Assembly: GCA_037176845.1 (NCBI GenBank)
Contig: JAYKXP010000059.1
Span: 273,020 to 337,019, forward strand
Length of the DNA: 64,000 bases
Reading direction: 5' to 3'
DNA from: Paramarasmius palmivorus
Lineage: Eukaryota; Basidiomycota; Agaricomycetes; Agaricales; Marasmiaceae
Below are positions 4,107-24,796 of the stretch, piece after piece. Each line of letters opens with the position of its first letter. The first letter of the stretch is position 1. The notes under the pieces were generated by a model. The model was given only the letters and a program-made list of their open reading frames with translations. It did no database searches and was not told the DNA's origin. The translations under genes and the position numbers were made by a program.

Positions 4107-4114
4107 GGCGGCTG
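4107..4114 (+). repeat. Left 8-bp target-site duplication GGCGGCTG
   Basis: GGCGGCTG occurs here and again at 24789-24796, in the same orientation, immediately outside the two ends of the large element. An extra A precedes both copies. An 8-bp duplication is consistent with KDZ/Zisupton-type transposition. Confidence 0.65.
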
Positions 4115-4144
4115 TGACAAAAACAGCTAACTTCCCCACGCCTG

Positions 4145-4165
4145 TCATAAATCAGATACCGCGCC
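4145..4165 (+). repeat. Left terminal inverted block
   Basis: Starts TCATAAATCAGATACCG and matches the reverse complement of 24736-24756 at 20 of 21 bases. The 30 bp outside it (4115-4144) match the other end only weakly, sharing a TG start and an AAAAC run. Confidence 0.65.
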
Positions 4166-4210
4166 TGGCATGTATCTCGGACCGGTAATATCAATGATGC
4201 CAACCTTTGT

Positions 4211-5226
4211 CTCAGCGCTCAGCGCTCAGCGTTCACACACCGAGACACAATGTAGGTAAACTCGCTCAGTTCAAGACTCAGTGTGTTCTCGCTGTCATCC
4301 CTCATCCAGAACTCAGCATCTCTTCGCTCAGATACACCACCCCAGGCAACACAGCGTCTCCTCGCTGTCATTCTCCACTCTGCCAACCCCGTGTCTCATC
4401 GCCCACATATTTTACCTCTTCCAGAACTCAGCGTATCATCGCTGACACCTCCAACATACCTCACCTTTATGGCCCTCAGCGTCTCTTCGCCGAGCTCTTA
4501 CACCTTCTATACCTCAGCGACTCAACGCTGAGATATCTCACCTCTACTCACTCAGCGTATCATCGCTGGGATGTATCACCTCTCGAAACACAGCGTCCCA
4601 TCGCTGGGATATTCGACCGTCCATATCTCAGCGATTCAACGCCGAGTCGTCATACCTTCCATATCTCAGCGTATCATCGCTGAGATGTCTCACCTCTCGA
4701 AACTCAGCGTATCCTTGCTGGGATATTCGACCTTTGACATCCCAGCGTGTCTTCGCCGAGTCGTCATACTTTCCATATCTCAGCGATTCAACGCTGGGAT
4801 GTATCACCTCTCTGGGATATTAGACCTTCCATTTCTCAGCGTATCATCGCTGAGATGTCTCACCTCTACCAACTCAGCGTCCCATCGCTAGGATATTCGA
4901 CCTTCCATATCTCAGCGATTCAACGCTGAGATATCATTCCATCCATATCTCAGCGTATCATCGCTGAGATGTCTCAGCTCTCGAAACTCAGCGTCGTATC
5001 GCTGGGATATTCGACCTTCCATTTCTCAGCGTATCATCGCTGAGATGTATCACCTCTACCAACTCAGCGTATCCTCGCTGGGATATTCGACCTTTGACAT
5101 CTCAGCGTCTCTTCGCCAAGCTGTTATACCTTCCCTATCTCAGCTTCCACTCGCTGAGATCTGCCTCAGTGTCCTAACGCTGACATCTGTACCTCTACTA
5201 TGCACTTAGCGTACACACACTGAGAT
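4211..5226. repeat. Array 1 of 38-bp palindromic (hairpin) units
   Basis: About 25 units of 38 bp. Each is a 20-bp block, CTCAGCG plus six bases plus CGCTGAG, followed by an 18-bp spacer that is pyrimidine-rich on the plus strand. The six-base loop varies (TATCAT, ATTCAA, TCCCAT, TATCCT, TCTCTT, TGTCTT, TCGTAT), while the arms change little; CGCCGAG is the commonest arm variant. The first 200 bp are irregular and start with three overlapping CAGCGCT copies. It ends about 150 bp upstream of the F-box-like gene at 5377. A related array lies at 23245-24636. Open frames in this stretch are repeat translation, not genes. Confidence 0.95.
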
Positions 5227-5376
5227 GCTCAGTTTGTCTGTGTTGATCTAGATCGTTCGAAAATTTTCTTTGAGCTCATCCATCGTCTTCCCCCGACACA
5301 TATTCCCCCAGGCAAGTCCGTATATCCTCCCATTCATACCAGACTTTCCGAATAACACCTTCCCCAGATCCAACAC

Positions 5377-6480
5377 ATGACCGAAATATCACGGCTCACT
5401 ACCATGGACACGTTCCCCGCTGAATTGATCGCCGAGATAATTCAACATGCCCTTCCATCTACGCCTATATCGCTCGACACCTCGACACATCGACGCATAC
5501 TCCATCATCTTACTAGCATTTGTCGGAAGTTCCATACAACTACACTACATATTGCTCCGCTCGACCAAATTGCCATATACATCGACACATGCCCTCATAA
5601 CCACAATGCTCTCAATTTCCTCGCCTTTCTTGTTGAGCACGCTCGAGCACCTCTCAAAGTCTCCATACGTTTCAACCCCCTCACTCTCAACCCCTTCCCG
5701 CCATGTCCATGCATTGCTCTCCTCCTCACCAGGCCTTGGAACACACTCACAGTCCAGGGTACTAACTGTAACCCTGAGACAGCTGCACGCGTCATTGACG
5801 CCTTCATTCCCAACGACGCTCTGGTTTCGGTGTCCCACGTTAAGATTCAAGCAGAGGCACATACCACAGACCTCCATATAGAGCACCTTTTTATCATTCT
5901 CTCCCAAAAGCGAGCCCATGGTAACCTTACCTTGGATCTGTGGCCTTGGCGCAGTACCAATCTCCAGCACCATCGTTTTCCTCACCCCCTTCCCCAAGTG
6001 ACAACGCTTCACTTGACCACCAGTTGGCGGAACATTCTTCCCATTCTCTATCTCCTTCCCAACCTACACTCGGCGACACTGACAATTGAACGCCCAGATG
6101 CCCATGCCGGTGACCTGTATCGATATACTGGACCACGTATACGACTTCCCCTCCTCGAAAATCTCACCATCGTTATCAAGCAATCCCTGCAAACCACGTC
6201 CGCCAAGATTGCAGACACCGTGCATGGATCTGATTGTTTCTCGAAACTAATCTCCCCCGTCCTCCGTTCCCTTACCCTGTGGTGGAATGCACACCCCGGA
6301 CCATCCCACTGCCAATACCTACAGCCAGCCCTGGACACGTTCCTCACCCAACACAGAGACACACTGTGTCTGTTTTTCTTTCACGATTACGCCAATGACG
6401 AAAAGGGAATGACCAGCTTGTTACGCAGTAGCTGTATTCACCAGAGTATTTTTCGGTATCAGGCACATTTCTCTCCGTAG
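5377..6480 (+). CDS. F-box-like protein 1
   Basis: Single exon, 367 residues, starting at ATG 5377; a second ATG at residue 10 (just before DTFPAE) is also possible. Residues 12-60 resemble the fungal F-box-like motif: FPAELIAEIIQHAL, then a helix pair leading to a cell of Leu, Ile, Cys and Phe residues. Such motifs bind Skp1 and recruit targets to SCF ubiquitin ligases. The remainder is a leucine- and histidine-rich tail of the kind seen in mushroom F-box/LRR-like families, with repeated LxxLTL-type segments that could be degenerate leucine-rich repeats. It is related in layout to the minus-strand genes ending at 19461 and 21523. The 38-bp palindrome array ends about 150 bp upstream, so promoter and 5' leader probably lie in or next to the array. 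No lesions are seen. Substrate unknown. Confidence 0.8.
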   Translation: MTEISRLTTMDTFPAELIAEIIQHALPSTPISLDTSTHRRILHHLTSICRKFHTTTLHIAPLDQIAIYIDTCPHNHNALNFLAFLVEHARAPLKVSIRFNPLTLNPFPPCPCIALLLTRPWNTLTVQGTNCNPETAARVIDAFIPNDALVSVSHVKIQAEAHTTDLHIEHLFIILSQKRAHGNLTLDLWPWRSTNLQHHRFPHPLPQVTTLHLTTSWRNILPILYLLPNLHSATLTIERPDAHAGDLYRYTGPRIRLPLLENLTIVIKQSLQTTSAKIADTVHGSDCFSKLISPVLRSLTLWWNAHPGPSHCQYLQPALDTFLTQHRDTLCLFFFHDYANDEKGMTSLLRSSCIHQSIFRYQAHFSP

Positions 6481-6655
6481 ATTTTCGCGTTGTAATATTG
6501 TAATATATAAGCCTGTAATGATACTCTATCCCGCTGCTCTTTCACCCTTTTACCGATACTTTATTCAACGAACACAAATTGGCCACGTGATCCTATTGAG
6601 CTTATCTTAGAATCTACCATCGATCCAACAACCAAGCTCTCTCACCCTGCACCTC

Positions 6656-8287
6656 ATGGCCTCTCCCAGTCCCGGTCCAATCCCCACATCCAAGCAAAAG
6701 GCCCAGTTCAAAGAATTATGGCCCAAGCGCGACGTCCAACATGCAGCTAAGTGGCTCCAAAAGAATGCCTCGAAGGTAAATCGCACACAATCCTCGCAGA
6801 GCAACTACAACGACCTACGATATAGCTGTGTCGAGCCTGCAAGGCCAGTGGTACGAAATGTACCATGCCTGAAGGTGGTACCGCAACACGTTGTGTTCAA
6901 TGTGGCACCTCCAAACGCACGCCTTGTTCCAAAACAACCCTCGAGCAGAAGTCTCGCATCATGGCAGCAATGGGCCTCACACATTCCGAATATGACACCC
7001 TCGACCAATGGTATAATGAAACCGTCTTGACCCCCCGAGCTGAAGCCAGAAAAGAGCAAAAACGCGCCGAAAAAGTGAGCACCATTAAACGATATCATTC
7101 ACCCACTCATCAGCACCCCAGGAACCATCGGCCTCTCATGTTCACAAGAATGATAAGAACTCAGTCAGTATCCATAACCACTCATTATTCCTTTAGATCT
7201 GATCTCCTCAATGTATAGCGTCCGGCGTCAGAACCCAGTCCATCCCCTTCCATCGACGTCAAGCACAAAAGGCCATCCAGTCCTGTCAACGTCAGTATTA
7301 CCCCCACACATGCCATATTTGCTATCGTCCTTATTTACGCCGTACACAGAGCCCTGAGCGCCATGCGAAGAGAATCAAGACCGTCGACCCGGCATCCGAA
7401 TCCGAGGAAGAGATTGTAACTCGCAGGAGACCGAAAAAACAAGTTGTTGTACAGGTGAGTTATCATACATTACCACTCCTCCACCTTGACAGCCGGTTCA
7501 CCTGTACCTAGGTCCCAATTACCACCAAAAGCAAAAAACCTCGCGAACACTCAGACCACGACCAAGCTTCCGACCACGAAACCGACCCAGAAGATTCAGA
7601 CCAAGATTCCAATGTCAACGACACACCACCGGCTGCAGAACGTAGTGCCACAACCCCCGCTTTCGCTCATGAACACCTTCGTGTACGTTGTCTCCAACTC
7701 AGTGCTCATAATGGAAAGCTGACCCGGCTTAGTCGTGCAAACCTGTAAAACAGCCACGCAAGATCAGTGCGAAACAGCCATCACCATCCACCAGGTCAGA
7801 ATCCATCGCTCGCCGGACCAGTATCCCGCCCCAGTCACCTCTGCAACGTAGACCTCCCCAGCAGTCAGCGCGGCGTTCCCCTTCGAATCAACGGGTGACT
7901 TCTCCCCCGGCTTCCCTCGAATCTATAACCAAAGACCCAGAGCAATCCAAGACTGACACAGGCGTAGCAAGCCCACCCCAGTCAATCCCCGCTGTTCCTC
8001 AAACCAGCATTAGTCGATGCTTCCCTCTCAGGTAATCCCATCACCCTATGCCAACTCACCAGACCACTACTTACCGTCCTTTCAATAGTGCTCCTGTTGG
8101 CTCTACCATTCCATCTTCCGAGGAATTTCGGCGAATGATCCATGAACTACGACGCGTCAAACGCGCCCTTGAAGATGTCTCCAGTGATCTCCGTTTCGAC
8201 CGACGACCGACGGGTCAATGCCTGGGGGATTTGAATGGGGCTATCGACCGATTTCACACGGTTCTCTCACCCCACGATGGCATTTGA
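6656..8287 (+). CDS. Zn2Cys6-like cluster protein with disordered middle and coiled C-terminus
   Basis: Seven exons, 6656-6775, 6826-7074, 7219-7290, 7350-7454, 7512-7682, 7733-8031 and 8089-8287, join in frame to about 404 residues; every intron is GT-AG and 50-145 bp. Six cysteines at residues 42, 45, 52, 63, 66 and 74 give C-x2-C-x6-C-x10-C-x2-C-x7-C, the spacing of a fungal binuclear zinc cluster, which binds DNA. Lys and Arg are fewer between the first cysteines than in classical members, so DNA binding is inferred, not certain. Residues about 125-340 are low-complexity (Ser, Pro, Asp, Gln rich) and probably disordered. The last 60 residues (EEFRRMIHELRRVKRALED onward) look coiled-coil. 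It lies inside the giant element, pointing at the transposase gene, and could regulate or assist it. It could also be an unrelated regulator. Confidence 0.7.
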
Positions 8288-8825
8288 CTCTCGTTGCTGC
8301 ACTCGTACCTCGTTTCCGCGTCTCGTTGATTGTACCAGTGTTTCATTCCTCTTGCTTTTGACCTCATCTTGTGTATTGCGATTCAGGACACATCTTTATG
8401 TATATTGTACGCATCGTCTATCGCCCACTCCACAATACAATGTACCTTGGATTGAAACATTGCGGCCATTACAGCTCCGCGCACGTGATAAGTTTGTTGA
8501 TCATTACGCTAGCGGCTTAGTCACTTCTTGCACCTCTCCCTTTTCCACTCGGCATCTGGTCGCTGAGGTTGAGTGTCAGCGACCAGATGCTGAGTCCCCC
8601 ACCACCGACCACGACCGACATAGTACAAGGTAGTCTCACTTCTGTATCAATGATTTTGGACTGTTCACTGATCAACCCAAGGCCTATTGTCACCCGACAA
8701 CCCAAGGCCTGTTGTCACCAACATCCGACTCGCTCCTTCAACCAAGGCAACTCCTGCCACTCCGCCACCATCAAATTATTATTCGGACTACTTCACATCG
8801 GACTACTATGCATCGCAGACGTCCA
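8288..8825. other. Convergent intergenic region with a perfect 15-bp hairpin
   Basis: Lies between the 3' ends of the zinc-cluster gene (+) and the KDZ transposase (-). It holds the inverted repeat described separately at 8552-8590. A Pro/Ser/Thr-rich plus-strand frame around 8589-8850 can be read with one intron, but it has no recognisable content and I do not call it a gene. Confidence 0.5.
8552..8590. repeat. Perfect inverted repeat, 15-bp arms and 9-base loop
   Basis: Arms 8552-8566 (GCATCTGGTCGCTGA) and 8576-8590 (TCAGCGACCAGATGC) are exact reverse complements with a 9-base loop. The inner part contains the same TCAGCG word as the terminal arrays. It sits between two convergent genes, where it could act in transcript termination, or it could be a transposase site. 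Confidence 0.85.
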
Positions 8826-11800
8826 CTACTTCCTCGCTCGAGCCTTGAGCATCTGCCGGATGCGAATACGGTTCCAAATACACAGGTAATGTTTCGTGTA
8901 TAAGATAGCTCGATTCTGACGCATGTAACTCACAGATTTCCTGATTCTCCCAATCCCGCTGTTTCCACATTCTGCCGCACTCGAATTAAGTCTTCCTGCT
9001 TCATCATCGACTTCCGCGTACGTTCCCAATGAAGCAGCCGAAGAACATTTTGAATGACCCTTGGCATGAAATTTGTCTACTAGAAACTGGGTTTTCGAAA
9101 AAAATTCCGGCTCTCTGTTCCAACAATATGGACCCAAAGCACACGCGAAGTTGTATATAACCCGACGAGGTGCCTTTGGCCATCTGGTCACCATTGCGGA
9201 GAACACGTCATTCCGCCCCTCTCCTTTGGGAATGCAATGGAACCCATAGCATATGCTATGCGTGCACCAGGCACACATTATACCCCCCGTGAGTCTCTTC
9301 TCTCCATATGTTGAGTAATACTTAGAACATTTCCCCCTTGTTTTGACATCCTTCTCAGGTTCCCCATCTCCCGGAATACCAGGGTATATGGGCCGTTTAC
9401 GGATTTGCGGCAACCCATAGCAACATCCCGTCTGAGGATTGACCCAGTCAGAGGAGCATGTCCACCATTAACAGCACACGCACCTCTCTCCAGTCCGGCG
9501 ACTCTTCAACGTCACAGATATCTTCCAGTCGTCGCTCCGACTCGTCACCCCCGATCAGATTCCACACCACGGTCGCCCGCTGCACCATCCACGCACACAA
9601 AGCCAACAGTGAGTCCCAATGAACATTCCTGTTATCGAGGCTTGACTCTAGCGTTAGCATCAGCGCCGGAATTCCTACCAGGACTGTTGCACTCTCTCTG
9701 GACGGCGCTTGAACAAATCTCTTGAGATATTGCAAAGCTTCTCTGTTCACCATTTGTATTGCTGAGTCGTCTGACGATAGCTGTTTTGTGGGTCAATATT
9801 TTGACGCTGCCCGATCTCCCTGCTCACCTGTTCCAACAGTATTCGATATCTACGTTTCGCCCTCTCTGCCATCTCCATACTACCTCGTCCAAACACATCG
9901 ACCAGCAGACTTGCCACGGAATGGTACCCCCCACTCTTCAGGGCATCCACAATAGCGTCCAATTCCAACCATTTTTCCTCCCCTTCCACGTAATTCTCGT
10001 CCTCACTGGAGTCGCCTGATACCCCGACTTTGTTATCTTTGTTATCTGACAATCCGGTCAGTACCTTTGGGTACCATGGCAGTCAAAGAAAAACACACCA
10101 CCAATGGCACCTGGTTTCGTCCTACCCCATCTTTTCATCCACTTCAACAAGCGGCGTCTCACTTTACTACGGCCTTCGTCCGGTATGACGATCCACTGCT
10201 GCTCTAGCACTCTCTTGCGCCGTCGACGAGGCGCGTCGGGAGCCTTTTCCGTTGGAGGTCGTAGGCTGCTGCGGATATGTTTTCTTCCAAACGCTAGCGT
10301 CACACCGTCCCAAATCACACTTTCAGGATAGGTTCCGCAATCAGGACACCACATATCATTTTGCAATTCCTGGAGTGACGCGTATGCAAACCACGCCGAG
10401 CGAAACAGGTCCTCCCCTATGAACTTCATTCCACGCGATTTGTATAATCGAGAAATGCACAGAACAAAGGCAACAAAAGGTGTCTCGCTCGTGGTGTACC
10501 GGTTCGTGTATTCGTCCAGCAGTTCATGCGTAAATAACGCTGAGTTGTTGAAGTTGAATAGGCCACTTTCTCGTGCATCTGGGCCAATCCAACACTGTCG
10601 GTGGGGAGCACACGAAGGACACTCCTGTAGTTCTATCTTCCGGGGGAGGCGTTCCGACAATGTGTACACGTGGCAAGATTTTTGCACTACTGCCTTGTCT
10701 GGCTGCCAGTAATGCATTCCACACGCACTGCGGCTGTTCTGGCCGATACGTATGACTTCCTCGATTTCGCGGCAGGGATCCGGTTGTGAGTAGAGTATTG
10801 TGTCGGTCGGTAATGCAGCCCACTCGGGGCAAAGAATTGGAAGGTAAGAGACGGCTCTCTCTCTCGACTCTCCCACATTCATATCGTCCACTTACAGAAA
10901 TCAGCTGATGAGAAAAGTTCACCGATAAAAAACGTTGCACGCACCCATATACATTCCTTCGAACGAGCCGGCTGTATCTATATCTCCTTCCCATTGCAGG
11001 TCCCTCACCATCAGTGCCAGCGCTTTTCGCTTGTGACTACAGTTGACATGAGCATCTTTATGGCAAGACCAACGTCCCTCTCCGCCGGGGTTTCCCTTGT
11101 ACATGATGACTGCTCGGCTTCGAGCGTCTTCTGTCCCCGAATCGCCCTCTACCGAAAAACACAGTCGTATTCTCTCCTCTTCTGCTCCTATGACTCTGCG
11201 AGAAAAAAGCACCACTTGTGGATCTCCAATAGTGGACTGGCAATTCAACGGTTAGCCAATAACTTGTCAGCATTACAACGAATGCTTACGACCTCTCCAG
11301 CCAGTACATCCCCAAATCGACTTTCCTGGTACTCCTTGTAGAACCGTTTGTGCAAGCAATGCTGATTTCCGCGTGGACACAAGCACGTCAGTTGCACGTC
11401 TGTGCCCCGCGGTCTAGCCTGAAAATGATACCAAGCGTCCTGTACTTTGATTGTCAGTCACATTGTCCTTTACGCGATACGTCACTGACCGTGCCCTCCT
11501 TCCTGTTCAGGTCAAACCCTTGCACCATGAATAGGGACCGCGATATCCTAACAAACCCTACATAACCTTCGCCAACCAAGCTGATGAACCACTGGTAGGT
11601 GTCATCAGCGTCTATCTCCACCTCCTCCACCGCCAACATTGGCTCGTCTTCAAGGATCCCGGACCATTCTTCGCAGCCTCCCGCACAAATTTCCGCCTCA
11701 CCGCCATGCACTACCTCGGTTACAGGTTCATGGGTAGAAGACGGTTTTTTCGATCCTTGAGCTGGCGTTCTCCGTTTGTTTGGGGCACGAGTGCGACGTC

Positions 11801-11963
11801 CTTTTGGATTGACCTTGGAAGGGCTTCGATTGAAAGTCTGAGTATGTCCAGGAAATCGCACTGAAGAACGCCCTGTGTCCCCAATCGGTTCCAGAACAAA
11901 TGCGCGTTTTCGTTGTGGTGCAGGCTCTAGAGCAGGCATTGTAGGCTGATTACTAAGCGCCAT
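8826..11963 (-). CDS. KDZ-family transposase with cysteine clusters (element 1)
   Basis: Multi-exon minus-strand gene. The N-terminal exon begins at 11963 (ATG of MALSNQ); an upstream ATG at 12026 is possible. Next comes a cysteine/histidine patch near 11410-11340 (CLCPRGNQHCLHKRF), then CHKDAHVNCSH near 11060. A large exon at about 10880-10058 holds CPSC, and CPDCGTYPESVIWDGV followed by SLRPPT, typical of the CxC5-type clusters that accompany KDZ transposases. The last exon, 9413-8826, has the KDZ signature: KCSKYYSTYGEKRLTGGIM, then CAWCTHSICYGFHC, GRNDVFSAM, DKFHAKGHSKCS, AAECGNSGIGRIRKSVSYM and IWNR. This is a DDE-type enzyme that cuts and rejoins transposon ends. The family position usually read as YDxAC is YNFAC here (codon 9150-9152), so a catalytic Asp may be lost. 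The frame is otherwise open through conserved blocks. Exon joins between 9413 and 10058 and around 11000 were not fully resolved. Confidence 0.75.
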
Positions 11964-12024
11964 TGCCCGATAAATATCACGCGTTTTGGTTTGTTTAATC
12001 CTCTCAACCCCCATTTCTGACGCC

Positions 12025-13448
12025 ATGACCACCAGTCCCAAACGCTCCTCCAATCGACGCGTCTCTCCGACCAAGAAACTTCAAGATAACAGCTCTCGCT
12101 CCATAACTCCCAAGATACGATACTGCCGTAAATGCAAAGACACCGAAAAGCATGAACAACGACTGTGCCCCAATTACAAGCGTCGGGTGCGAAAGCAGGT
12201 GAGCTTACATCTTTACTTATAGCCATGCTATCTCTAACTTTTGCTCCAATATTTTCAGGGCGTGTCACCACTCAACCCGGTGAACGCTGTTCCTCCTCTC
12301 CCGACCCCCACACACGGTAGTTTGACAGCTATGCCCAGCCTGTCTCCGTTGGCAGTACGTTACATGTTGGTATTGGTCTGCCTGTCTTGACTGAGTATCT
12401 CAATTTTTAGCCCACATCCGGCTCGACCAGCATACCCGACTCTGATGAAACACCCGACTCTGATGAAACTGTGAGTGCATCGTTCTCTCGCCGATATGAT
12501 AAATCTCAGTAACGTATATTCCATATACTACAGAGCGTGGTGGTAATACCCATAGATCCCGTTTTACTGCGGTCACCACCGCCTCCACAGCCAACCACGC
12601 TACCCGCCCTTGCCAGTGGATCACCGTTTGGCCATGCATCACCACAATCAGCACCGAGTGATAATCCCTTCATAACCTCTGGTTCCTCTTCATCTTTCAA
12701 TGTTCCAACTCACATGATGACACCTCCGCGCGCCTCTTCTGACACTCCCTCTCGTTCTTCATCACCGTCCACTCCGTCCCGCTCGTCACCCATTGCCTCT
12801 GCCATTGGCCGTCGTGGCTCTGTCTCCCCCAGTCACTCTCGCTCTTCTTCGAAGCGTATACGTGCCACCGTCAGGAATCCGGTTTTTGGGACCATAGTCG
12901 GTGCCTACCGAGGCACCAGAGTCATGAGTGGGTCTTCTGGCTATTCAATGTTGGTGCCAATCTCAATCACACTGCAGGTGTTGCCCGGTCACGTCCACTT
13001 GGCGATGTCAAGACGACCAAGGTCGCGAAGCATTTTCAAGAGCGCTTACACGCCTTACTCACCCGAGTAAGTACCGCTTTCTCTTTATATCCGATTGGTT
13101 TTGAAATCATTCCTCCAGTGCGAAGACTTGGCTCATGAAACCGGTTGTTGGCTATATCTCTCCGCCCAACTACCCACAGCCAACGTACCATTCACGCATT
13201 TCACGTCAGAGCGACTGCGGGCGGAAGGAGGAGCTATAATGGATGAAATACATGACGCCTCGGATCGTCTATATGATTCTCTGATGTCCGCTCGCCGTCG
13301 AGACAATGCTCAGCTCGCTTCTGAGATAATTAAGGCGAATCGGGATCGCGAGGCGGCTCGCCAGGGAGAGGCTGCAGCGCTAGACCGACTGTCCCAAATG
13401 GAAGCAGCCTTGTTAGCGGCTGGAGTACCTATTCCTAGTACAGAATAA
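12025..13448 (+). CDS. CCHC zinc-knuckle-like and coiled-coil protein
   Basis: Exons 12025-12198, 12259-12354, 12411-12470, 12534 to about 12856, about 12916-13066 and 13119-13448. The junction between the fourth and fifth exons is uncertain. Residues 34-48 have C-x2-C-x5-H-x4-C, close to a CCHC zinc knuckle, set in a Lys/Arg-rich region (RRVSPTKK, KRRVRKQ), so nucleic-acid binding is plausible. A long Ser/Pro-rich, probably disordered middle follows. The last exon encodes a helical, charged segment (ERLRAEGGAIMDEIHDASD onward) ending in an Ala/Leu-rich coiled coil. It starts divergently from the KDZ transposase; the two alternative start codons share one CATG at 12024-12027, so the genes may share a promoter. 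Likely an element-encoded accessory protein; its role is unknown. Confidence 0.6.
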
Positions 13449-13674
13449 TGTCATACAAAACTCTAATAATAATACAATGAATTCAAATAGCGTGATTTCA
13501 TGATACACAGTGGACAGCGACAGTATGAGCAATACATGCGAAAACTGGGGACAGGGTGGGGCTTGAGGAGAGCAGGTTGATGCCAGAGTATTGCAGGCCG
13601 GTGAATATTACGAGCAGGTGTGGTAACAGTTGGCGGTTGCCCGGAGGGTAAGACATAGTTGGACTGGCTTCTAA
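13449..13674. other. Short intergenic stretch
   Basis: 3' flanks of two convergent genes. No gene or repeat seen. Confidence 0.4.
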
Positions 13675-15102: not shown

Positions 15103-16073
15103 ATGGCCCGGATTCCATCCCCAGGAGAACACTCAGGGTACAGCTCTGACGATGGTAGTCTCGACGAATTCATCCAGAGTGTTCTGGACGAACCGTGCTC
15201 CGACGTTGAATCCACTGCGACCCGAGAACCACCTCTACACCCCGACTATTATGCCTCTGACGAAGATGACATTCTCGATGCTTTTGTTCGACAAAGTGTA
15301 CAACATCCCTCCCCTGATTCTCCTTCTCCACTACCGAGAGTGGGTATGTGATTTGCTCTTCACCTCATTTACCGCGTGTCGTTTATCGTCGTTCCCAGCT
15401 TATATGACCGAGAAGCATCGCCTGTGCCAGGACAACACACGGTCAAAGATACTACGATCAACCACCGCCACTGAGAGGGCCATTGGAGCCAAAGCTCAGT
15501 CTCGCCCCATCCGAGACGCACTTGTGGGACCATACCGAACTTCGTTGGACTCAATAGAGGCTCAGCCGGGCAAAACGAGTGGTGTAAAACATATTGTCAG
15601 GGAAGTCAGCAAGGAAGGCAAGGAAGGCGCACGTCGCCTGCGTCCTCTGATCATGCCGTGCTTGGTAGACAACGCTCGAGTGCTCAAACGTTCGAGGACG
15701 AATGACACTATAGGCACGTAGAGGGCCCCTAGTCGCTTGATTGGTACTCATGACCCCGTATGCAGAGACACAAGGACCGGACCATGATCGAACACGCATC
15801 AATGTCGAGATGGCAGGGAGTGATGGAGTGGATGCATTGGAGCAACGACGACAAAGGGAGCGGGAGCGAAAACGACGGTAAAATTTCTTGTATTGTGGGA
15901 CGGCTACGTTTCTGTTCCTGACAAAGTCACCGACACAGGGATAGGAAGGCGAATCCTGAATTGCACCGAGCCAGGCAGAGAGTCTATTCCGCTCGCTATA
16001 GGAAAGGCCGGGAGGCTCAACTAGCGGAAGCCGAAAGATTACGCCGGCGGAAGAAAAAGGGGGACGATCGATG
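15103..16073 (+). CDS. Acidic/basic hypothetical protein, element cargo
   Basis: Exon 1, 15103-15343, starts at ATG 15103 and encodes an acidic Ser/Asp-rich segment (DEFIQSVLDEPCSDVES). Exon 2 starts at 15399 in the matching phase and encodes a Lys/Arg-rich, probably flexible segment up to about 15715. A third exon about 15776-15878 and a last exon from 15940 to the TGA at 16073 encode a very basic helix (RRQRERERKRRDRKANPELH, later RARQRVYSARYRKGR) like basic nucleic-acid-binding tails. The joint between exons 2 and 3 is unresolved: no GT donor gives the right phase, so a GC donor, a lesion or two genes are possible. No known family. It may be a DNA- or RNA-binding accessory of the element. 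Confidence 0.5.
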
Positions 16074-16506
16074 AAGCATGTGGCAATGATAACAATGGCG
16101 TGATATCGTTATCACGGTTGCGATGGATCGTCCTATGGCAGCTTGGCACCTGTTCGTAATATAGCCACCTTGATAGATGTAATGTGTGTAGAGCGCAACA
16201 TAGGCCCCAAAAAATCCAAAGAAAAAAAAAGGTCTGCGCTCCAGAATACTAGTAAGCGTCTGTCGCAAAGGGCGAGATAGACGGAAGGAGAGGAGGTTGG
16301 CGCCAGGGGTGTACGAGTAAACCAAGGCCAGATGATTTTGAAATGCGTGCAGTTGTTGCACTCGGGGGAAAAACCACCTTTCTTTCCTACCAGCACGTCG
16401 CAGTGTCAACCTGCCCCGACAACTCAGCAATGGAAACTTGTACGGGTCCGAAAAAAAAACTTACTGAATGCCTACTAATTTTTCTTCCACCATAGCGTGT
16501 ACCAGC

Positions 16507-19177
16507 ATGATGCAGCAGTGTCGCAACGGTAAGTGGTATCGTTCCTGCGGCATGTTCCAAATAACTAATGAACCGACCCAGAGTTGTCCGACGCCAAAGA
16601 AAAGCTCATAGCGTTGGAGAAGGCTCAGGAGACCGCTATCAACCAACTGCGCAGTGCGAAGGGGAGAGTAACGCAAGCGACGAATAAGCTGAAGGCTGGG
16701 CGTGCACTCCCTGCCCGGCCAGGTAAGGAAAGGGAAAAAGAAATTAGGATAACCCAATCGGAAGAGCGTTCGGCCCAGGCAGTGGAGGCCAGGGACGCGA
16801 AGCAGTCTGAGTTGGAGAGAGTGGCGGCTGAGGTCGAGCAAGGAAAAAAAAGGGTGTCAGCGCTACTAGCCAAACTGCAAGGTATTTCTGCCCGTTTACC
16901 TGGCTAACAAAACTGTGACTGATTCTTCTCGATAGAATTGGAGGCAATAGAGGCCGAGCTTGTTCTCCAACCGGAGAGGCAGTCGCACGAAGAGCACCCA
17001 AGGAGTGTACCAGGTAGGCTGGTCCAACCTTTTTATGAGGAAGGAGTTGATAGACCATTGTCGTAGTGTCTCCACCGCTGCGAGAGGGAGAGAAGTCGCC
17101 CATGCAGGAGATCAGTGAGTACCCTGGCATTTGTTGCAAGTCTCATCCTGAACACCTGCCAGATACGTCGGGGGAGAAGGTCTCAATACCGACAGATGTG
17201 CCGGTACCAGTTCACGACCATCACCGCCCAACCACTACGGAAGAACGGAGGCCAGAACCGATCGGTGAGGAGCGTCCGTCAGGCGTCGCTCACGGAATGA
17301 ATACTCCGATGATCGTTGATATTCCTTCGCAATCGGGATCCAATGCCGACCCAGCAATAGTCGTGGACACGGCTCAATCGAAAGGCGAAGGTGGTTCGTC
17401 TTCAAGCAGTCAACCATCACATTCTCTCGCAGTCGCACAGGCTGCGACCTCAGGGGCGGGTAACAGGCCCAACGCTGCCGCTTCTGCGTCTTCCTCGTCT
17501 GCTGTAGATCCAGTAGATGTCGACGTGGTGATTAGAGATGGTATGGTGTTAGATGAGGAGGACCTGGTTGCCGTTTCAGCACAACCGAAGCGCAGAGGCA
17601 GCGATAACATGCCGGAGAGTGGAGGGACTCCAAAAAGAGTTCGTCGTGGATCGGATACGATGGATGTGGAGGAATCGCAAAACCAGGTATGTTCTCCTGG
17701 TGACTCGATGTTACTTAGAAGATTGATTGGGCGAGTTGTAGAGGGATAATGTCAGTGAGATATTGGAGAGCAGGGACGAATGCGGAAGAGCAGCAAGTCT
17801 TGTGGAGGGTGAACCAAAGGCAAATGACGCCGGTGAGGTGAGTATGTGTTTTGTGCGTGGTGTGTAACAGAGCCCTGAACTGCGACTGTGCAGGCCGTGA
17901 CCGGTGTGGTCGGAAAGCAGACGGACAAAGGCAAAGGGAAGGCGAAGCAGAAAGGCGAGGGCAAGAAAAAGGGGAATATAGGTCCTGCTTCGCGTGTCAA
18001 GCAGGTTGGAACGGTGGAACTTTCTGAAGACGAAGCTCGCCCCGTGGCAGACCTTCTCGACGATCGTGTGTGCATCAGTTCACCTTTCGATGCAAAAGAC
18101 TTTTCCCTGGGTGAGTCTTGGCATAGGTCTTCTGAGAGGAAAGAAACTCACCAGGTGTTAGACATGGAAGAGAAAATCAGGGATTGGCTGAAGCTCGTCC
18201 TGAATGATCCTGCCAAACTAAAGGAGGTGCCCCCGCCAACTGGGACGTATACCTATATCATGTCTGATGCACGTCTGGCTCCAGAGGTGGCCTATACCGC
18301 TCAGGAGATTGCGGAAAAACTGTTTGTATCGCAAAACTCTGCATTCAAATGTGTCTGCCATTCTCGAGGAGACAAGCAGACGCAGAGTTGGGATCACCCT
18401 GACGAGTTTTTCGGAATCCCTTGGGAACCGTTCCCGACCACCTTGAAAAAGATGATGGGTCAACATATGTCGCCTCCGGTCAAGCGGGATGCGCCGGCGC
18501 CAAAGACTTTGTTCGCAGCAAGGTATGCACCGGATGTCGTCGAGCGACTGGCAGACATGAACCAGAAGAGGTTGGCGTACAACGTGAAGAAGAAGCAGAC
18601 GTTGGAGTTGAGGGTAGAGCCAGAACATAGCTTTGGTGGTCCTAGCTCCGTCGGGCAGGATGTCGAGCGAGACTCGTTTGGGAGAGACATTCGGTGCATG
18701 GATTGTGGGTGCCTGGTGAGACATGCGCTGATGTACTTGGCGTTGTGGAAGATGGGGAGGATAGGGTCTGTAACACATCCGGGGTTCTTCATGCGGGGGA
18801 ATGATTCGTATCTGGCGTCTCGAGATCGACAGTTCTACCTGGAAGATTTGGAACGGTTGGGAAAAGTGAGATTGGAAGATCTGTATACACACGTACTGGT
18901 GACGGATCCAAACGACCCTCGGAAGCAGATCTTCCAGAGGAAGAACCCTATGCAGGCTCTATGTAACCAAGCGAGTCGTCTCTTCCAGGACATGCATTTG
19001 TTGGCAGCAAAGGGATTTTCAGTTCCGAAGGAATACGAGCAGTTGGGTGATTTCCTGGGTATTGCAACGAAGCAGGTTAAGCGGGCGGAGGAGAAAGAGG
19101 AGGAGCCGATGTCGCTATTAGACAAGAACAGCAAGGAGTACCTAGAACAGGTTGCACTGCGTGTTCAACGTAAGTAG
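16507..19177 (+). CDS. Unknown 783-residue protein: coiled coil, acidic linker, conserved-looking C-terminal domain
   Basis: Seven exons, 16507-16528, 16582-16881, 16936-17013, 17067-17114, 17163-17686, 17742-17837 and 17894-19177, join exactly in phase (783 residues). Residues about 8-110 form a strong coiled coil rich in Lys, Glu, Gln and Ala. Residues 150-360 are Ser/Ala/Asp-rich and look disordered, with nuclear-type basic patches (PKRRGSD, PKRVRRGS). The last 350 residues are compact and contain Cys pairs (FKCVCHSRGD and RCMDCGCLVRH), a long helix-rich segment (RQFYLEDLERLGKVRLED) and a Trp-rich core (DHPDEFFGIPWEPFP). This C-terminal domain does not match a family I know. It is the largest intact non-transposase gene in the element and a prime candidate for a cargo-specific function. 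A minus-strand reading of part of it is antisense only. Confidence 0.75.
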
Positions 19178-19460
19178 ATTGTATTGTACCTTTCGACTGT
19201 GTCAACGGAGGCACGTGCCTTTACCCGTCTCTTCGATGTTGAGCGATAGTGGCCTAAGACCATTGTGTGTTGTATGATGCGCAACGGGTGGGTGATTCAA
19301 ACAGTCTACTGGTGACTGAGGAATGTGATTGACGCCAAGGAAATCAGCAACTCAAGATTATTGGATATTCAAGATGAGCTAGATACAATGTACGATTCAA
19401 TACACATGCTGCAACGTACAAACTAAACAGTAGTCCTCTGGTATGAGCTTCGACGAGAAA
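19178..19460. other. Convergent intergenic region
   Basis: Lies between the stop of the 783-residue gene and the 3' end of F-box-like gene 2. Contains CACGTG at about 19212. No gene or repeat seen. Confidence 0.5.
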
Positions 19461-20781
19461 TTACACAATGATTTGGTCCGTGGTCCACTTGTAGGAGAAC
19501 GGGGTGTTGGTTTGGATTCGGTCCTGCATACGTTGCGTGAAGAGCGAAAGCTTCATCGGCCCGGTTTCATGCAAGAGCACTATTGATTCCCATGGTCCTC
19601 GCTCAACAAATTTGAAGGTGCAGAGCGAGTCGTAGGAATCGGCAACGGTGAGGAAATCTTCGAGGGCATCGCCGAACCGCTGGGACATGATGTGTGTGTC
19701 GTGAACCCAATGCAGGGACATCGACTTGAGATTGATCGCTACGATTTGCTGCAGGAGAACACACAATGAATCGGAGGGTGTGCCTTGCACAACGAGTGTG
19801 AAGGATTTTAGTTGTTCGAGATGGATCTTCTGGGTCGGGAATCGAAGCGGGTGTAGTGGTGATATCGTGTCGTGGAGGTCGAGTGTTTGCACGTGCGAGA
19901 ATGGACGAAGAGAGTGATAAAAACCTTGAGGACACCCCGTGAGGCTGAGACTCTGCACCAGAGGAAGGGATGCCTTCAGAAATGTTGGACCGTGAGGAAT
20001 CCAGTGTCCCAGCCTAAGACTGACATGGCACGACAATCGACGAGTCGCCAGCGCATCCAAGAGCCGCATGGCATCCCAACCTTTGATGCGTTCGTCAACC
20101 TCAATCTCGATGTATGTGAGTGAGGGTTGGGAGAACATGGCCTTGTTGAATGTAAGGTTGGTGACAATGAAGTTGGTGATCGTGGGGTATTGTGACGCCG
20201 TGATTGTAAGCGACCCGAGGGAACGTTCCATGACGTTATCCAGGCATGAGCAGAGAGTGTCACGGACGTGAGGAATGGGCAAATCATACGAATTGTCTGG
20301 TGATGACAATAGTTGGATGGTGAGGTTAAGGGGATGTCTACGTGCGAGACTGAGGATAAAAGAGAGGAAGCGAATTTGTCGATTGGAGTGAGAGTAACAT
20401 TCTTGGGGTCTTTTGAGAGTAATGGTGCAGAAGTTGCCAGGATTTGACAGAGTGGCCTGTCGAAATCGCTGGGAGATATGTGCGATTCCAAGGGTTCGTT
20501 TGTTGTCGCCTCGCCAGTAGGTGGGGGTGCTGTCGAAAGTGAATCCGGTGACCATGGCATGCGACACTATCTCGCGTATGATCTCGGCAGGGAAAATCGC
20601 GAAATCTCCGTCGATCTGACTGGTGAAGAGGGTTAGCGGACACGTTTGGGGATGTCTCAGATGGGTAAACGTACGCGTTAGTGGGTGTGGGTGACCGTTC
20701 TGCATCATTGACGTCTTCAGGAGGACTGGGTGACTTTTGGGCTGCTGTCGCTGATATAAATCTGAATGGAGGCTTGATCAA
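19461..20781 (-). CDS. F-box-like protein 2
   Basis: Two exons: 20781-20675 and 20619-19461, joined across a 55-bp GT-AG intron in exact phase. The true start is not fixed. The first exon is open from a TTG at 20781, and another exon with an ATG near 20869 may precede it. The F-box-like motif is at the start of the second exon (DFAIFPAEIIREIVSHAM), followed by a helix pair and a tail of regularly spaced leucines (LDLHDTISPLHPLRFP, LEQLKSFTLVV) like degenerate leucine-rich repeats. By family such proteins act in SCF ubiquitin ligases as target receptors. It is a divergent relative of the genes at 5377 and 22779 and faces the opposite way to gene 1. One copy of the palindrome lies upstream at 21321. 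No lesion in the long exon. Confidence 0.75.
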
Positions 20782-21522
20782 CTTGGGTTTAGTGCTGTTA
20801 TGATGAAAAGACCATACTCAATGGAGGGGCTTCGAGTGATGAGTCGGCTTGTGACAATGCGGGATTGCATGGTAGTGATACGCTGGAAAATCGAACTTTA
20901 GATTGGAAGGGTTTCTTGTACTCGGTGCGACTCACTGAGCAAGAGGCAGAGAAATAGAGATACAGAGAAGCTGTTGGTTACGCAAGTGAAGCTTTACAGG
21001 TGTGCTGTCGGGCCTGTGGGAGTTATAGAACAACGCGATGGGCAAAGTGCCTGTGTTGAACGTAGTAGCTGTGGAGAGGTGAATGGGAGAAAAAAAAGAG
21101 TAGAATGTCTGAGTCAGCCAATGTCTGGATTTGTTCCGACGAATTGCGGGAAATTGCGGGTGTGACGTGATGTGATTGGACTCGTAGAACGAGAATGGAA
21201 TTTCAGAGGACTTATTGGGCTGGACATAGGAAGGATGAAAACAGATATGGACTGGGAGAATAGCGAGCGCAGGCTGAGAACCGTTGTGGCTGGTGGCAAG
21301 GAAGGCAGTCGGATCAAACCCAGCGTATCACCGCTGAGTCACAAATGTCCCAATTTGGCAGGTTTTATCAGAGATAAGAGGATGAACTGGATCAATAAAT
21401 TGTACGAGTAGTTACAGGGATTGGTTGTGCTGTTAGATATCTATAAGTACAGAATGGTAATAAACGAAGAGAAGAATATTTGAGGTGTCGCTCCTTATTC
21501 ACTGCCCGACCACATACTGAAG
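20782..21522. other. Upstream region of F-box-like gene 2
   Basis: Contains possible 5' exon sequence of the minus-strand gene near 20830-20870 and one isolated palindrome at 21321-21336. No other gene seen. Confidence 0.45.
21321..21336. repeat. Isolated copy of the terminal-array palindrome
   Basis: CAGCGTATCACCGCTG, the array palindrome with loop TATCAC, stands alone upstream of F-box-like gene 2 and downstream of F-box-like gene 3. Confidence 0.7.
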
Positions 21523-22779
21523 TTAGCCAGATCCGCTGGGTGCGGGCTGGTCAAAACTGTCTGTGGACCCCCAGGTTGGTATAGGTCCCCAGTTCCCGTC
21601 GGAAGGAGTGTCTTCATCGTACCACAGGTCAAACCCACGATAATGGTATTGAAAGCCGGAAAGAGCAAATTGACAGCTGATAAGCATGTCAGCGAATTCC
21701 TCGCCGTTGTAATTGCTCTTGGTTTGGAGGTTATGGAAGGTGAAGTTGCGGAGGGATGTAGAGGTACGACGAATTAGGGCGCGGATACCGTCAAAAAAAA
21801 ATTTACTGGTTGTAGGACTCTCGGGAGCGGACCATTCAATCGACAATGAGCGAAGGCCAGGCACCACGAGATATTGAAGAATGTCGTGGAAATGATGTGT
21901 GGGCTCAGTGGTAATGATAAATTCCAGGTATTGGAGGTGAGGAAGGCAAACATCACCCCTTGACCACCGCCATTCAGGTCGAAGAGTCCAATCACCAAAG
22001 GATAAGTTGAGTTGGACGGACTGAAGGCTCGGCAAACGCGCTACAACCGGAAGAACGGCTATAGTGCTGGAATAGAGTGTAAGGGTGGTAATGAAGGGGA
22101 GGCGGGGCTGAATGTCGACGTGTTGAGGTAGGGGATACCACCCCCATGTCGCGGTGGACAGGGTGCCTCGAAGCTGACGTAGAGCGAGGATGTTGAGAAG
22201 CCGGGGAAAATGGTCGCCCCCATCGCCGTTCGAGACGCCAGTTTCGAATCGGGTGAGACTGTGGATGTGTCCGGGAGGAATTTCTTTGTCGAGTAAATCA
22301 CAAATCCGATCAAAGCCCCAGCAGGTGGTGATCTTCAGTTCGCCCCATTGACGGTGAAGGAGAATATCGAGGCAAAGACATGGGACTGCTGGGTCGTCGT
22401 GCTGTGTTGGGCTCAAGCTGCGTCCTTCGTCACTCTCGGTGTCACTCTCGGTGTGGCTTGGTGAGAGGTCGATGTCGAGTTCGAGGGGATGTTTGGCATT
22501 TTCAATTAGAAAGATGAGGAAGGATGTGGAGGCGGGATCGTGATGACAGCGTTCATCGTCGTCTGCTCGCCAGCAGTTAAGGGATATACGATGGAAGGGT
22601 GCATTGAGAATGACGATAGCGTGGATGCGTTTACTGGTGAGCAAAAGGGAGAGCAGATCACGACGGCTGAGGAGATCGCAGTCAGGGAAAAAATCCAGAG
22701 CTTGGCAAACAATCTGCGCCAGAAGCTCGTTAGGGAGTGATTGCACTGGTGATTTGTCGGTGGTGTGAGGAGACTGCAT
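21523..22779 (-). CDS. F-box-like protein 3
   Basis: Single exon, 418 residues, ATG at 22779. The F-box-like motif lies at residues 14-60 (SLPNELLAQIVCQAL, then LLSLLLTSKRIHAIV). The tail holds repeated leucine-rich strands (PFITTLTLYSSTIAVLP, then a run beginning LPSLQSVQLNL and one with HLQYLEFIIT), suggesting an LRR-like fold that would present a target to an SCF ubiquitin ligase. It is intact and intronless like gene 1. Its 5' side faces array 2, which begins about 470 bp upstream. The spacers of that array are pyrimidine-rich when read in the sense of this gene, as are those of array 1 relative to gene 1. The two gene-plus-array pairs are therefore near mirror images at the two ends of the element. 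Confidence 0.8.
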   Translation of the reverse strand: MQSPHTTDKSPVQSLPNELLAQIVCQALDFFPDCDLLSRRDLLSLLLTSKRIHAIVILNAPFHRISLNCWRADDDERCHHDPASTSFLIFLIENAKHPLELDIDLSPSHTESDTESDEGRSLSPTQHDDPAVPCLCLDILLHRQWGELKITTCWGFDRICDLLDKEIPPGHIHSLTRFETGVSNGDGGDHFPRLLNILALRQLRGTLSTATWGWYPLPQHVDIQPRLPFITTLTLYSSTIAVLPVVARLPSLQSVQLNLSFGDWTLRPEWRWSRGDVCLPHLQYLEFIITTEPTHHFHDILQYLVVPGLRSLSIEWSAPESPTTSKFFFDGIRALIRRTSTSLRNFTFHNLQTKSNYNGEEFADMLISCQFALSGFQYHYRGFDLWYDEDTPSDGNWGPIPTWGSTDSFDQPAPSGSG

Positions 22780-23244
22780 AGTGCGAGGGGTATTGTATAG
22801 GGTGAGGCGGAGGTGTGCAGGAAAATTGGTGGTGGTGGTGGTGGTGGTGCAATTGTGCGATGTCGTGCAAGAAATTTTGGGGAATGTAAAGGATTGACAT
22901 TTGGCTGGGCACTCAATGCTTCATAGGTACAGATACTAATCATAATAGGGATATATAGCAAATAAAGCAGCAAGTCCGTCATTACCAGACTAGGAACTGC
23001 GCTGGTGTGGACAGTAGACTCTCAGAGAGACGTGAAATGGTGGAGATTTACTAGTGATAGATAACATGTACGAGTGGCTCTGCGAGCTTGGTGTTGTGGG
23101 AACGTGCCAACATGGCGAGAGTGCCAGTGGTGAATACGAGAAAAGTGAGGCGGTTTGGGTTTGGTGGCTAGTGAGCGGTATTGGGAGTGAGGATGGCATG
23201 TGCCTCGGCGATTACACGCTGTGCAGCAGCAAGGGACACAGGAT
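22780..23244. promoter_or_regulatory. 5' region of F-box-like gene 3
   Basis: Non-coding. A (GGT)n-type tract (GGTGGTGGTGGTGGTGGTG) lies near 22830-22850. No clear TATA box was found. It leads into array 2. Confidence 0.35.
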
Positions 23245-24636
23245 GTCAGCGTTGCAACGCCGAGTCTGAACGTGTGGAACTGGGCGACGAGACGCTGGGA
23301 TAATTGGTGGTCTCAGCGATTCTACGACGAGTCTGAGAAAGGAATAGAAGTGGGCGAGTGGTCGCTGAGATTACTGGGCAGTTGGAGACCCAGCGACACA
23401 ACACTGAGTGAGTGGAAGTGGTGACAGTGAGCGATGGGTCGCTGAGATAAATGCAGGAGGCGGACTGAGCGAGGAGACGCTGTGATAAATGCTGGTGGTG
23501 GAGCCAGCGATGGAGCGCTGGGTTAAATAGCCCAATACGTATAACTCTTATAAGCACGTGCACACTGGAAAAGAGATTTAGTCGTGATACAATATGGTAT
23601 GGGTGTGTAGACATACCTGGCGGAGCCAATGGTCATTCGGTGTGTGAGACCCTGTGCAAAACTAGTGGACATGTGCGAGGAACAACGGAGGCTGAGATGG
23701 ATGATGGTGTACTCAGCGATTCAACGCCGAGTCCGTGGAAGGAGTGAAGCTGAGGGATTGGTCGCTGAGATAAATATGGTGGTAAAACTCAGCGATTCAA
23801 CGCCGAGTGTAGGGGAAGAGTGGAACTGGGCGAAGAGACGCTGAGATTGATGATGTTGGTGTACTCAGCGATTCAACACCGAGTTCGTGGAAGGAGTGAA
23901 GCTGAGGGATTGGTCACTGAGATACATATGGTGGTAAACCCCAGCGATTCAACGCCGAGTTCGTGGAAGGAGTGAAGCTGAGGGATTGGTCGCTGAGATA
24001 GGTATGGTGGTAAAACTCAGCGATTCAACGCCGAGTGTAGGGGAAGAGTGGAACTGGGCGAAGAGACGCTGAGATTGATGATGTTGGTGTACTCAGCGAT
24101 TCAACGCCGAGTTCGTGGAAGGAGTGAAACTGAGGGATTGGTCGCTGAGATACATATGGTGGTAAAACCCAGCGATTCAACGCCGAGTATGGGAATTCGA
24201 AGTGAACTGAGGGATTGATCGCTGAGATAAATATGGTGGTAAAACTCAGCGATTCAACGCCGAGTGTGGGGGAAGAGTGGAACTGGGCAAAGAGACGCTG
24301 ACATGAATACCAGTGGTGTAGTCAGCGATGCATCGCTGAGCCGTGAAGGAAAGATTGTGAAGGCTAGACATATATACAGCATTGAGTGAGATGTAAAACA
24401 GACGTGACTGAACTGACCGATGGTCGGACCCACTGGTCAAAGCAACCGTTAACACCTGAGCGTGGCATCGCCGAGACCCGTGAAAGGGAACGATCCCAGT
24501 GAGGACTCGCCGAGTCTTTGGAAATGGTGGTAGATGCTCATGCTCAGCGCATGGACGCTGGAATGGGTAATGGTACAGAGTGGGCGTGTAGTCGCCGAGA
24601 TTTATGAAGATACAGAGTGAGCGTGTGTTCGCCGAG
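23245..24636. repeat. Array 2 of 38-bp palindromic (hairpin) units
   Basis: Roughly 30 units of 38 bp, most regular at 23715-24345. The 20-bp block is as in array 1, often alternating CTCAGCG-ATTCAA-CGCCGAG with CTGGGCG-AAGAGA-CGCTGAG or CTGAGGG-ATTGGT-CGCTGAG, so a 76-bp double unit is visible. The 18-bp spacers are purine-rich on the plus strand, the opposite of array 1. A gap of about 160 bp without palindromes lies at 23530-23700. Loop orientation does not give a single polarity for the array. Confidence 0.95.
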
Positions 24637-24735
24637 AGTTATGAGGGTTATGGCCTATTCTTGTCTACTTTACATCTTTGGATATTTATTCCCACAATGT
24701 TCACTTTTCGTGGGCACTGTATCCCGACGCCGCCC

Positions 24736-24756
24736 GGCGCGGTATCTGAATTATGA
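24736..24756 (-). repeat. Right terminal inverted block
   Basis: Reverse complement matches 4145-4165 at 20 of 21 bases. It lies 32 bp inside the right end. Confidence 0.65.
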
Positions 24757-24788
24757 TGGGCCCTGTTACCTTATCTGTCGTTTTCCCA

Positions 24789-24796
24789 GGCGGCTG
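24789..24796 (+). repeat. Right 8-bp target-site duplication GGCGGCTG
   Basis: Direct copy of 4107-4114. Confidence 0.65.

Follow-up and report, generated by a model that had tools for sequence, protein, structure and literature searches.

KDZ is said to have been defined by Iyer in 2014. The closest described systems include Zisupton/Dileera and the Cryptococcus elements KDZ1-KDZ3, which are large, encode a KDZ transposase with a cysteine cluster and produce 8-bp duplications (PMC12730594, PMC12810828). Cryptococcus KDZ1-3 measure about 9-11 kb and have TIRs of 139-241 bp and CxC1 (PMC12730594, PMC12810828). The Kyakuja families are described with 7-bp duplications and CA..TG termini, without TIRs, and it has been proposed that the extra host-like gene of TET/JBP-carrying fungal DNA transposons aids in escaping silencing (PMC12730594). 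Proteins that fuse an F-box to CxC7 have been found in fishes, and a platyfish Zisupton isoform contains an F-box (Bohne 2012, as cited in PMC12062965). The study cited last, from 2025, dealt with transposable elements and F-box genes; its authors state that they found no sign of transposons having captured F-box domains (PMC12062965).

The stretch of DNA analyzed here (the window, 64,000 nucleotides) comes from the mushroom-forming fungus Paramarasmius palmivorus, and harbors a young KDZ DNA transposon in which gene E and the F-box-like genes, beside the transposase, most likely form a resident core. We assign a probability of about 0.82 to the reading that the element is one mobile unit with the F-box-like genes as residents, a figure that leaves their degradation target aside. 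The likeness to Zisupton/Dileera and Cryptococcus KDZ1-KDZ3 lies in the KDZ transposase, the cysteine cluster, the 8-bp duplication and the large size. Unlike Cryptococcus KDZ1-3, the window element is 20.7 kb long, has CxC4 and only a short imperfect inverted block, and contains gene E, F-box-like genes and arrays of palindromes. Kyakuja shares the KDZ superfamily and an Agaricomycete host; membership was considered and discarded, as the window element has an 8-bp duplication and termini C[AG]GATAG...GCTGCCCC instead of 7 bp and CA..TG. The TET/JBP-carrying transposons are similar in having an extra host-like gene aboard, here represented by the F-box-like genes; no TET/JBP Pfam match was found among the element pieces and models scanned. 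The fish fusions and platyfish Zisupton likewise combine an F-box with KDZ-type parts. In the fusions, however, the domains reside in one protein, whereas the window element carries separate F-box-like genes within a delimited element.

Extent of the element and target-site duplication

The real target-site duplication is GAATATTT, an 8-bp sequence present at 4093..4100 and 24801..24808, and the element therefore spans 4101..24800 (20,700 bp, with the termini given above). An earlier note on this DNA had proposed a different 8-mer, GGCGGCTG, as the duplication, with element ends that were off by 6 and 4 bp. This candidate was rejected because other copies have GGCGGCTG inside their ends, too, and all three homologous sites that lack the element are also devoid of GGCGGCTG. 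In the window, GGCGGCTG has five plus-strand occurrences, including those near the left end (4107..4114) and the right end (24789..24796), both part of the element. It is present at both ends of copy C87 and at the single end seen in each of C37, C46 and C57; C167 shows one mismatch, and C19 has no exact GGCGGCTG.

Perfect duplications of 8 bp, as in Zisupton/Dileera, flank the same termini in four elements, and all four are different: GAATATTT in the window, CGAAACTC in C37/C46 (probably two halves of one copy), AAAACAAT in C87 and GGGATTCC in C19. An allele-like empty site was detected on contig C60, with 6 bp missing at the junction; intact GAATATTT was found in none of the three empty homologous sites. 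The proposal that the whole interval moves as one unit is supported by the 8-bp duplications at the same termini of other elements and by the empty site. KDZ copies with ends well inside the interval, an outcome that would contradict the proposal, were not seen among the copies with ends examined. The assignment to KDZ-type transposons is supported as well.

Inverted block and palindrome arrays

The outermost bases of the two element ends match each other poorly as inverted repeats. An inverted block with a 20/21 match is located 44 bp from each end (left arm, 4145..4165, plus strand; right arm, 24736..24756, minus strand); wider inverted arms of 76 nt show 71% identity. Two palindrome arrays lie further inside. 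The left array (4200..5250) contains 25 units TCAGCG-N6-CGCTGA with two mismatches at most, mostly arranged in 38-bp steps, and the right array (23200..24660) contains 26 units under the same tolerance. Both the block and the paired arrays had been described in the earlier note and were found again. The arrays account for 51 of the 57 such sites in the window, compared with a mean of 1.8 sites per shuffle in 20 whole-window mononucleotide shuffles. Genome-wide, the palindrome occurs 65 times, and its reversed control once. Separately, we observed that the GC skew changes sign at the element centre, irrespective of gene strand.

Transposase and genes B, D and E

The CxC4-KDZ transposase is encoded on the minus strand at 8826..11939, in an 8-exon model of 900 aa whose start is uncertain. 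The earlier note had seen it in the middle of the element; the actual position, 8.8-12 kb, is left of the middle. The CxC4 domain (PF18717) scores 141 bits on the minus strand and 138.8 bits on the gene model. The KDZ domain (PF18758) scores 28.5 bits on one exon, above the cut-off of 26.6, and 24.7 bits on the whole spliced model, slightly below it. The PF18758 profile match starts only at position 75 of 217, and does not place the first catalytic residue. KDZ-related loci are recurrent across the genome. Judging from the KDZ superfamily, the transposase would move the element by cut-and-paste.

The Zn2Cys6-like and CCHC genes noticed previously are also present, as pattern motifs at 6829 and 12124. 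Gene B (6826..7215, plus strand) is an ORF with a Zn2Cys6 pattern, CX2CX6CX10CX2CX7C, and its gene model is uncertain; the motif is present in C87 too, and was looked for and not found in C19 and C183. Gene D (12124..13448, plus strand; model 12714-13448) is a CCHC/coiled-coil gene with a conserved C-terminal region; uncertainty affects its 5' portion and whether the motif belongs to the same model.

Gene E (15103..19177, plus strand) encodes a conserved, unknown protein of 766 aa (NCBI VNI00_012600), and its C-terminal part, 17879-19174, is the best-supported portion. Its relatives in public proteins are few: among the best 8,000 or so candidates, one metagenome protein shows 42% identity and the rest belong to the same species. 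The gene E alignment profile found no match among solved-structure sequences, and the structure model is poor (pLDDT 36.6).

F-box-like genes and their association with the KDZ lineage

Three F-box-like paralogues are found in the element: gene A (5377..6480, plus strand), gene F (19461..20705, minus strand) and gene H (21523..22779, minus strand). Gene F corresponds to NCBI VNI00_012601 with a different 5' exon. Public-protein relatives of these genes are few, and come from the same species. In a tree of nine rows, A, F and H of C19 pair with A, F and H of the window, with supports of 83/86, 91/90 and 99/99.

To describe their association with the window's KDZ lineage, loci were counted after scoring 51 of 212 candidates in the KDZ-lineage search. 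With the window included, a KDZ of the lineage is no more than 20 kb away at 13 of 20 F loci (one F-box-like family) and at 16 of 22 E loci. E and KDZ are on opposite strands in 16/16 cases, 5.9-10.1 kb apart, and F and KDZ are on the same strand in 12/13, 8.2-11.5 kb apart. The remaining loci (7/20 for F and 6/22 for E) have no lineage KDZ within 20 kb, and several of them are at contig ends. Canonical F-box genes, represented in the genome by at least 148 PF12937 matches, behave differently: among the matches listed, only 1/148 is found near the lineage, within 22 kb (Fisher p 1.2e-13).

The diverged C19 element carries A, KDZ, D, E, F and H collinear with the window, at 27-88% identity. In the distant C183 element, neither A nor H nor the palindrome arrays are present, and its ends and duplication were looked for and not found. 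Purifying selection acts on six element gene models (dN/dS 0.11-0.38, z 3.9-10.3).

Because of the locus linkage, the order kept in C19 and the low dN/dS, the F-box-like genes look like a resident core. The earlier note regarded them as cargo, and they are indeed inside the element; however, the term undersells them, as they and E are found again next to this KDZ lineage at many loci, with order and spacing preserved. This pattern suggests that they belong to the transposon's own toolkit and are not stray passengers.

Possible roles of the F-box-like genes

The F-box-like genes likely encode adaptors of the cell's protein-destruction machinery: the A, F and H proteins would link the host SCF ubiquitin ligase, via Skp1, to chosen proteins. 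The earlier note suggested that they could change the turnover of host proteins or shield proteins of the element. We favor, tentatively and at somewhat less than even odds, a host silencing or repair factor as their target. A second-ranked and more doubtful option is copy-number control, in which the putative F-box proteins would degrade the element's own transposase or the E protein, thus limiting or timing transposition. At 12/20 F loci, F and E lie side by side in convergent orientation, as would be fitting for a regulator and the protein it controls, but adjacency does not show interaction, and the 21-28% identity between the A, F and H groups fits better with several or changing targets.

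Another explanation is that A, F and H are LRR-like proteins and not functional F-box proteins. Only two of nine members of the family match PF12937 at E <=1. A and F, scanned singly against Pfam, gave no F-box match, and H scores 20 bits (E 6e-4), below the cut-off of 24.3. The profile of the family alignment found no match among solved-structure sequences, and an NCBIfam scan of the alignment gave no match. Against this view, an N-terminal P.E(I/L/V) block is common to the family, UniRef labels three of the proteins, F included, as F-box domain-containing, and one member matches the F-box-associated LRR model (E 0.0056). In addition, the three top Foldseek matches of the gene F structure model, itself poor (pLDDT 43.6), are F-box/LRR ubiquitin-ligase chains, none of them at E <=0.001. 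We consider the LRR-like explanation improbable; the identification of A, F and H as F-box proteins, which draws on the sub-cutoff Pfam match of H and the UniRef label, is of moderate strength.

The weakest alternative, that these genes are passengers captured from a host genome rich in F-box genes, as fungal genomes are, and play no role for the element, is very unlikely given the purifying selection, the paralogue groups that predate the C19 split, the same order kept in C19 at 27-44% identity, and the contrast between F loci and canonical F-box matches in their proximity to the KDZ lineage.

Returning to the resident-gene reading, element proteins (the CxC4 domain, D or E) would bind the palindromes of the two subterminal arrays and bring the element ends together. 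A further and unlikely scenario for the KDZ lineage is that SCF adaptors have become core components, in fixed order with the transposase and E, and serve to counter host silencing by targeted protein degradation, while a strand-asymmetric DNA intermediate leaves the central flip in GC skew. If A, F and H are true F-box proteins, this element, together with the related ones in a single genome, would be evidence of F-box capture by transposons, in the form of separate F-box-like genes within a delimited young transposon, with their order kept in diverged copies. Should they act via SCF, they would parallel, at the level of protein degradation, the TET/JBP genes of other fungal KDZ elements, and ubiquitination-based counter-silencing by transposons would become directly testable.

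Sequence variation among copies

The second copy was compared with the window: its left 7,410 bp (the C37 half) differ by 24 substitutions and 5 gaps, and the C46 end shows many short indels, which give the impression that the sequence was left unpolished where the contig stops. RIP was considered as the cause of the differences between C46 and the window, and is not supported by the indel-rich C46 end nor by the few changes in the C37 half. In the C87 copy, gene H contains in-frame stops.

Termini and target-site duplication of the element

Paramarasmius palmivorus is a mushroom of the family Marasmiaceae; its genome assembly comprises 68.3 Mb in 393 contigs, and the window lies at positions 273020-337019 of contig C59. 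Public proteins VNI00_012600 and VNI00_012601 of this species match genes of the element interval. An earlier note had taken the 8-mer GGCGGCTG (at 4107 and 24789) for the target-site duplication, a view that our analysis does not bear out. The same 8-mer is found at both ends of the copy on contig C87 and at the single visible end of each of those on C37, C46 and C57, as well as, with one mismatch, at the C167 end (C57 and C167 carry one element end each), and it is absent from three homologous sites devoid of the element. Therefore, GGCGGCTG is part of the element itself. In the C19 element, exact GGCGGCTG was not found.

Directly outside the termini, perfect 8-bp repeats were detected whose sequence varies by element: GAATATTT in the window (4093-4100 and 24801-24808), AAAACAAT in C87, GGGATTCC in C19, and CGAAACTC at the C37 and C46 ends alike. 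The length of the duplication is exactly 8 bp because the adjoining bases differ in C37/C46 and C19; in the window and C87, it is extended by 1-4 bases through chance matches. The elements have the termini C[AG]GATAG and GCTGCCCC in common, which places the window element at 4101-24800.

As contigs C37 and C46 both end inside the element and carry one identical duplication, they are probably the two halves of a second copy. Twenty-four substitutions separate the left 7,410 bp of this copy from the window element, thus indicating recent movement; its right end, indel-rich and located at a contig end, was left out of the dating. That end (C46:421037-426038) contains many indels of 1-2 bp and is probably unpolished assembly.

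Nested insertions were also observed. The C167 remnant is split by a 3.3-kb insertion (C167:25048-28335) at the window equivalent of 6808-6813, and window segments 38114-39867 and 59283-60985 match this insertion as pieces of another repeat family. Another nested insertion, roughly 7.7 kb long and with a G+C content of about 0.36-0.43, interrupts the C87 element (C87:170147-177852; window equivalent 8287-8304).

Element-free sites

The window flanks, joined at a single copy of the duplication, were searched against the host genome. At C60:10901-12500, all 74 bases beside the site match the left flank and are followed directly by the right flank (459 aligned bases, 86%), with no element between them. 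Paralogues of the insertion site at C59:270491-271067 and C60:4861-5398 (74%) are likewise uninterrupted. None of the three homologues has an intact GAATATTT; an unoccupied form of the exact target was thus not observed. The C60 junction lacks 6 bp (TACGAA), a loss that could be a scar of excision or reflect an unrelated deletion. The spacing between the two site matches is about 6.3 kb on C59 and C60 alike, pointing to C60 as an allelic or duplicated region.

C60 also contains an insertion of about 645 bp (L056:449-1093) with inverted ends TAGACCTGTAACCGG...CCGGTTACAGGCCTA and the 10-bp direct repeat CCCTTGCTCT on either side; it looks like a small non-autonomous transposon.

Conservation of gene content and palindrome arrays

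Within its own 8-bp duplication, the C19 element carries the F-box-like gene A, the KDZ transposase, the CCHC-pattern gene D, the conserved gene E, and the A paralogues F and H, matching the window element in gene order and orientation, with identities from 27% (A) to 88% (KDZ core). Both palindrome arrays are present as well. Genome-wide, TCAGCG-N6-CGCTGA occurs at 65 sites, compared with 1 for the reversed control; among 50 of these sites that were listed, 46 belong to elements of this family, on C19, C37, C44, C46, C57, C59 and C87. Such palindromes are probably binding sites of an element protein.

A nine-protein tree places each of the C19 proteins A, F and H with its window counterpart (supports 83/86, 91/90 and 99/99); only 3 of the 6 inner branches reached the strict support level. 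Because of this pairing, the triplication of A, F and H looks older than the C19-window split.

Match lists were reduced to loci (E, 29 rows to 22 loci; F, 25 to 20; KDZ, 75 to 39), with the window included in the E and F counts. Relatives of the window transposase were found within 20 kb of 16 of the 22 E loci, always on the opposite strand (16/16) and at 5.9-10.1 kb. For F, 13 of the 20 loci had such a neighbor, which in 12 cases shares the strand and lies at a distance of 8.2-11.5 kb; the remaining one, on C44, has an inverted KDZ gene at 2.6 kb. E was found within 5 kb of 12 of the 20 F loci, convergent or opposite in all 12. In the control set, a single one of the 148 canonical F-box matches lay within 22 kb of this KDZ lineage (best 150 of 880 candidates scored). 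Three of the seven partnerless F loci are near contig ends (C46, C57, C249), and the others are on C73, C79, C85 and C177; a missing partner is not proof of absence, as the best 51 of 212 KDZ candidates were scored. Owing to common ancestry, the E, F and KDZ loci do not represent independent events. Judged from these sequence comparisons, E and the F-box-like genes look like part of the element's core rather than stray cargo.

In a distant element on C183, we detected KDZ, D and F together with an E match; A, H and palindromes of the TCAGCG-N6-CGCTGA type were not found there. Hence, E and F may constitute the older core.

Among the papers listed in searches of open-licence literature, none described a fungal KDZ element that carries F-box genes, which falls short of proving novelty; passages of PMC8290104, PMC7641404, PMC6416283 and PMC8955403 make no mention of one.

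Gene models and selection

Gene models were built with a small splice-aware script, and coding frames were weighed using the diverged C87 copy (DNA identity 75-85% across long matches). Six of the 11 models in the region scored above 20. Comparison with C87 yielded dN/dS values of 0.137/0.401 (0.34) for A, 0.046/0.345 (0.13) for KDZ, 0.040/0.379 (0.11) for D, 0.071/0.291 (0.25) for E, 0.071/0.186 (0.38) for F and 0.099/0.428 (0.23) for H, with z between 3.9 and 10.3; these ratios lean low because the models were partly picked by their conservation with C87. Gap codons (5 in H, 1 in E) and codons with a stop in C87 (2 in H, 1 in D) had been removed, and H of C87 contains in-frame stops. For E, the model is uncertain in its N-terminal exons (the NCBI model has 766 aa), and the 5' exon of F in the NCBI model differs from ours. 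The Zn2Cys6-pattern ORF, B, is supported only by a motif and a weak frame (model score 7.3).

Probable F-box identity of A, F and H

The three proteins A, F and H are paralogues that share an N-terminal block. H matches PF12937 with an E-value of 6e-4 and 20 bits (cut-off 24.3). At E-values up to 1, this model matched two of nine members of the family, and an F-box-associated LRR model matched one of the nine (E 0.0056). Three F proteins bear the UniRef name "F-box domain-containing". Structure prediction for F was poor. We consider it very likely (a probability of roughly 0.85) that the family is of the F-box type.

GC skew along the element

Plus-strand GC skew goes from about -0.3 on the left side of the element to about +0.3 on the right side, with a sign flip at the center of 4101-24800; in the flanks it is about 0.03. 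At fourfold sites, the skew tracks position and not gene strand: A(+) -0.44, KDZ(-) -0.29 and D(+) -0.34 on the left; E(+) +0.26, F(-) +0.25 and H(-) +0.57 on the right. C19 presents the same pattern gene by gene, and C87 along its length. In 250-bp windows, 37/41 were negative in the left half of the window element and 36/41 positive in the right half, compared with 33/42 and 31/42 in C19 and with 19/41 and 28/41 in a host control stretch, whose right half also leans positive. Strand-asymmetric replication and end resection are candidate causes of the central flip.

Additional observations

PF18758 (KDZ) has at least 178 matches genome-wide (best 150 of 365 candidates scored). The left flank contains a frame of 967 codons without stops (841-3741). 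C134:110622-115957 and C302:3930-9265 show KDZ and F-box matches with equal scores in mirror orientation, and these contigs are probably duplicates or haplotypes.
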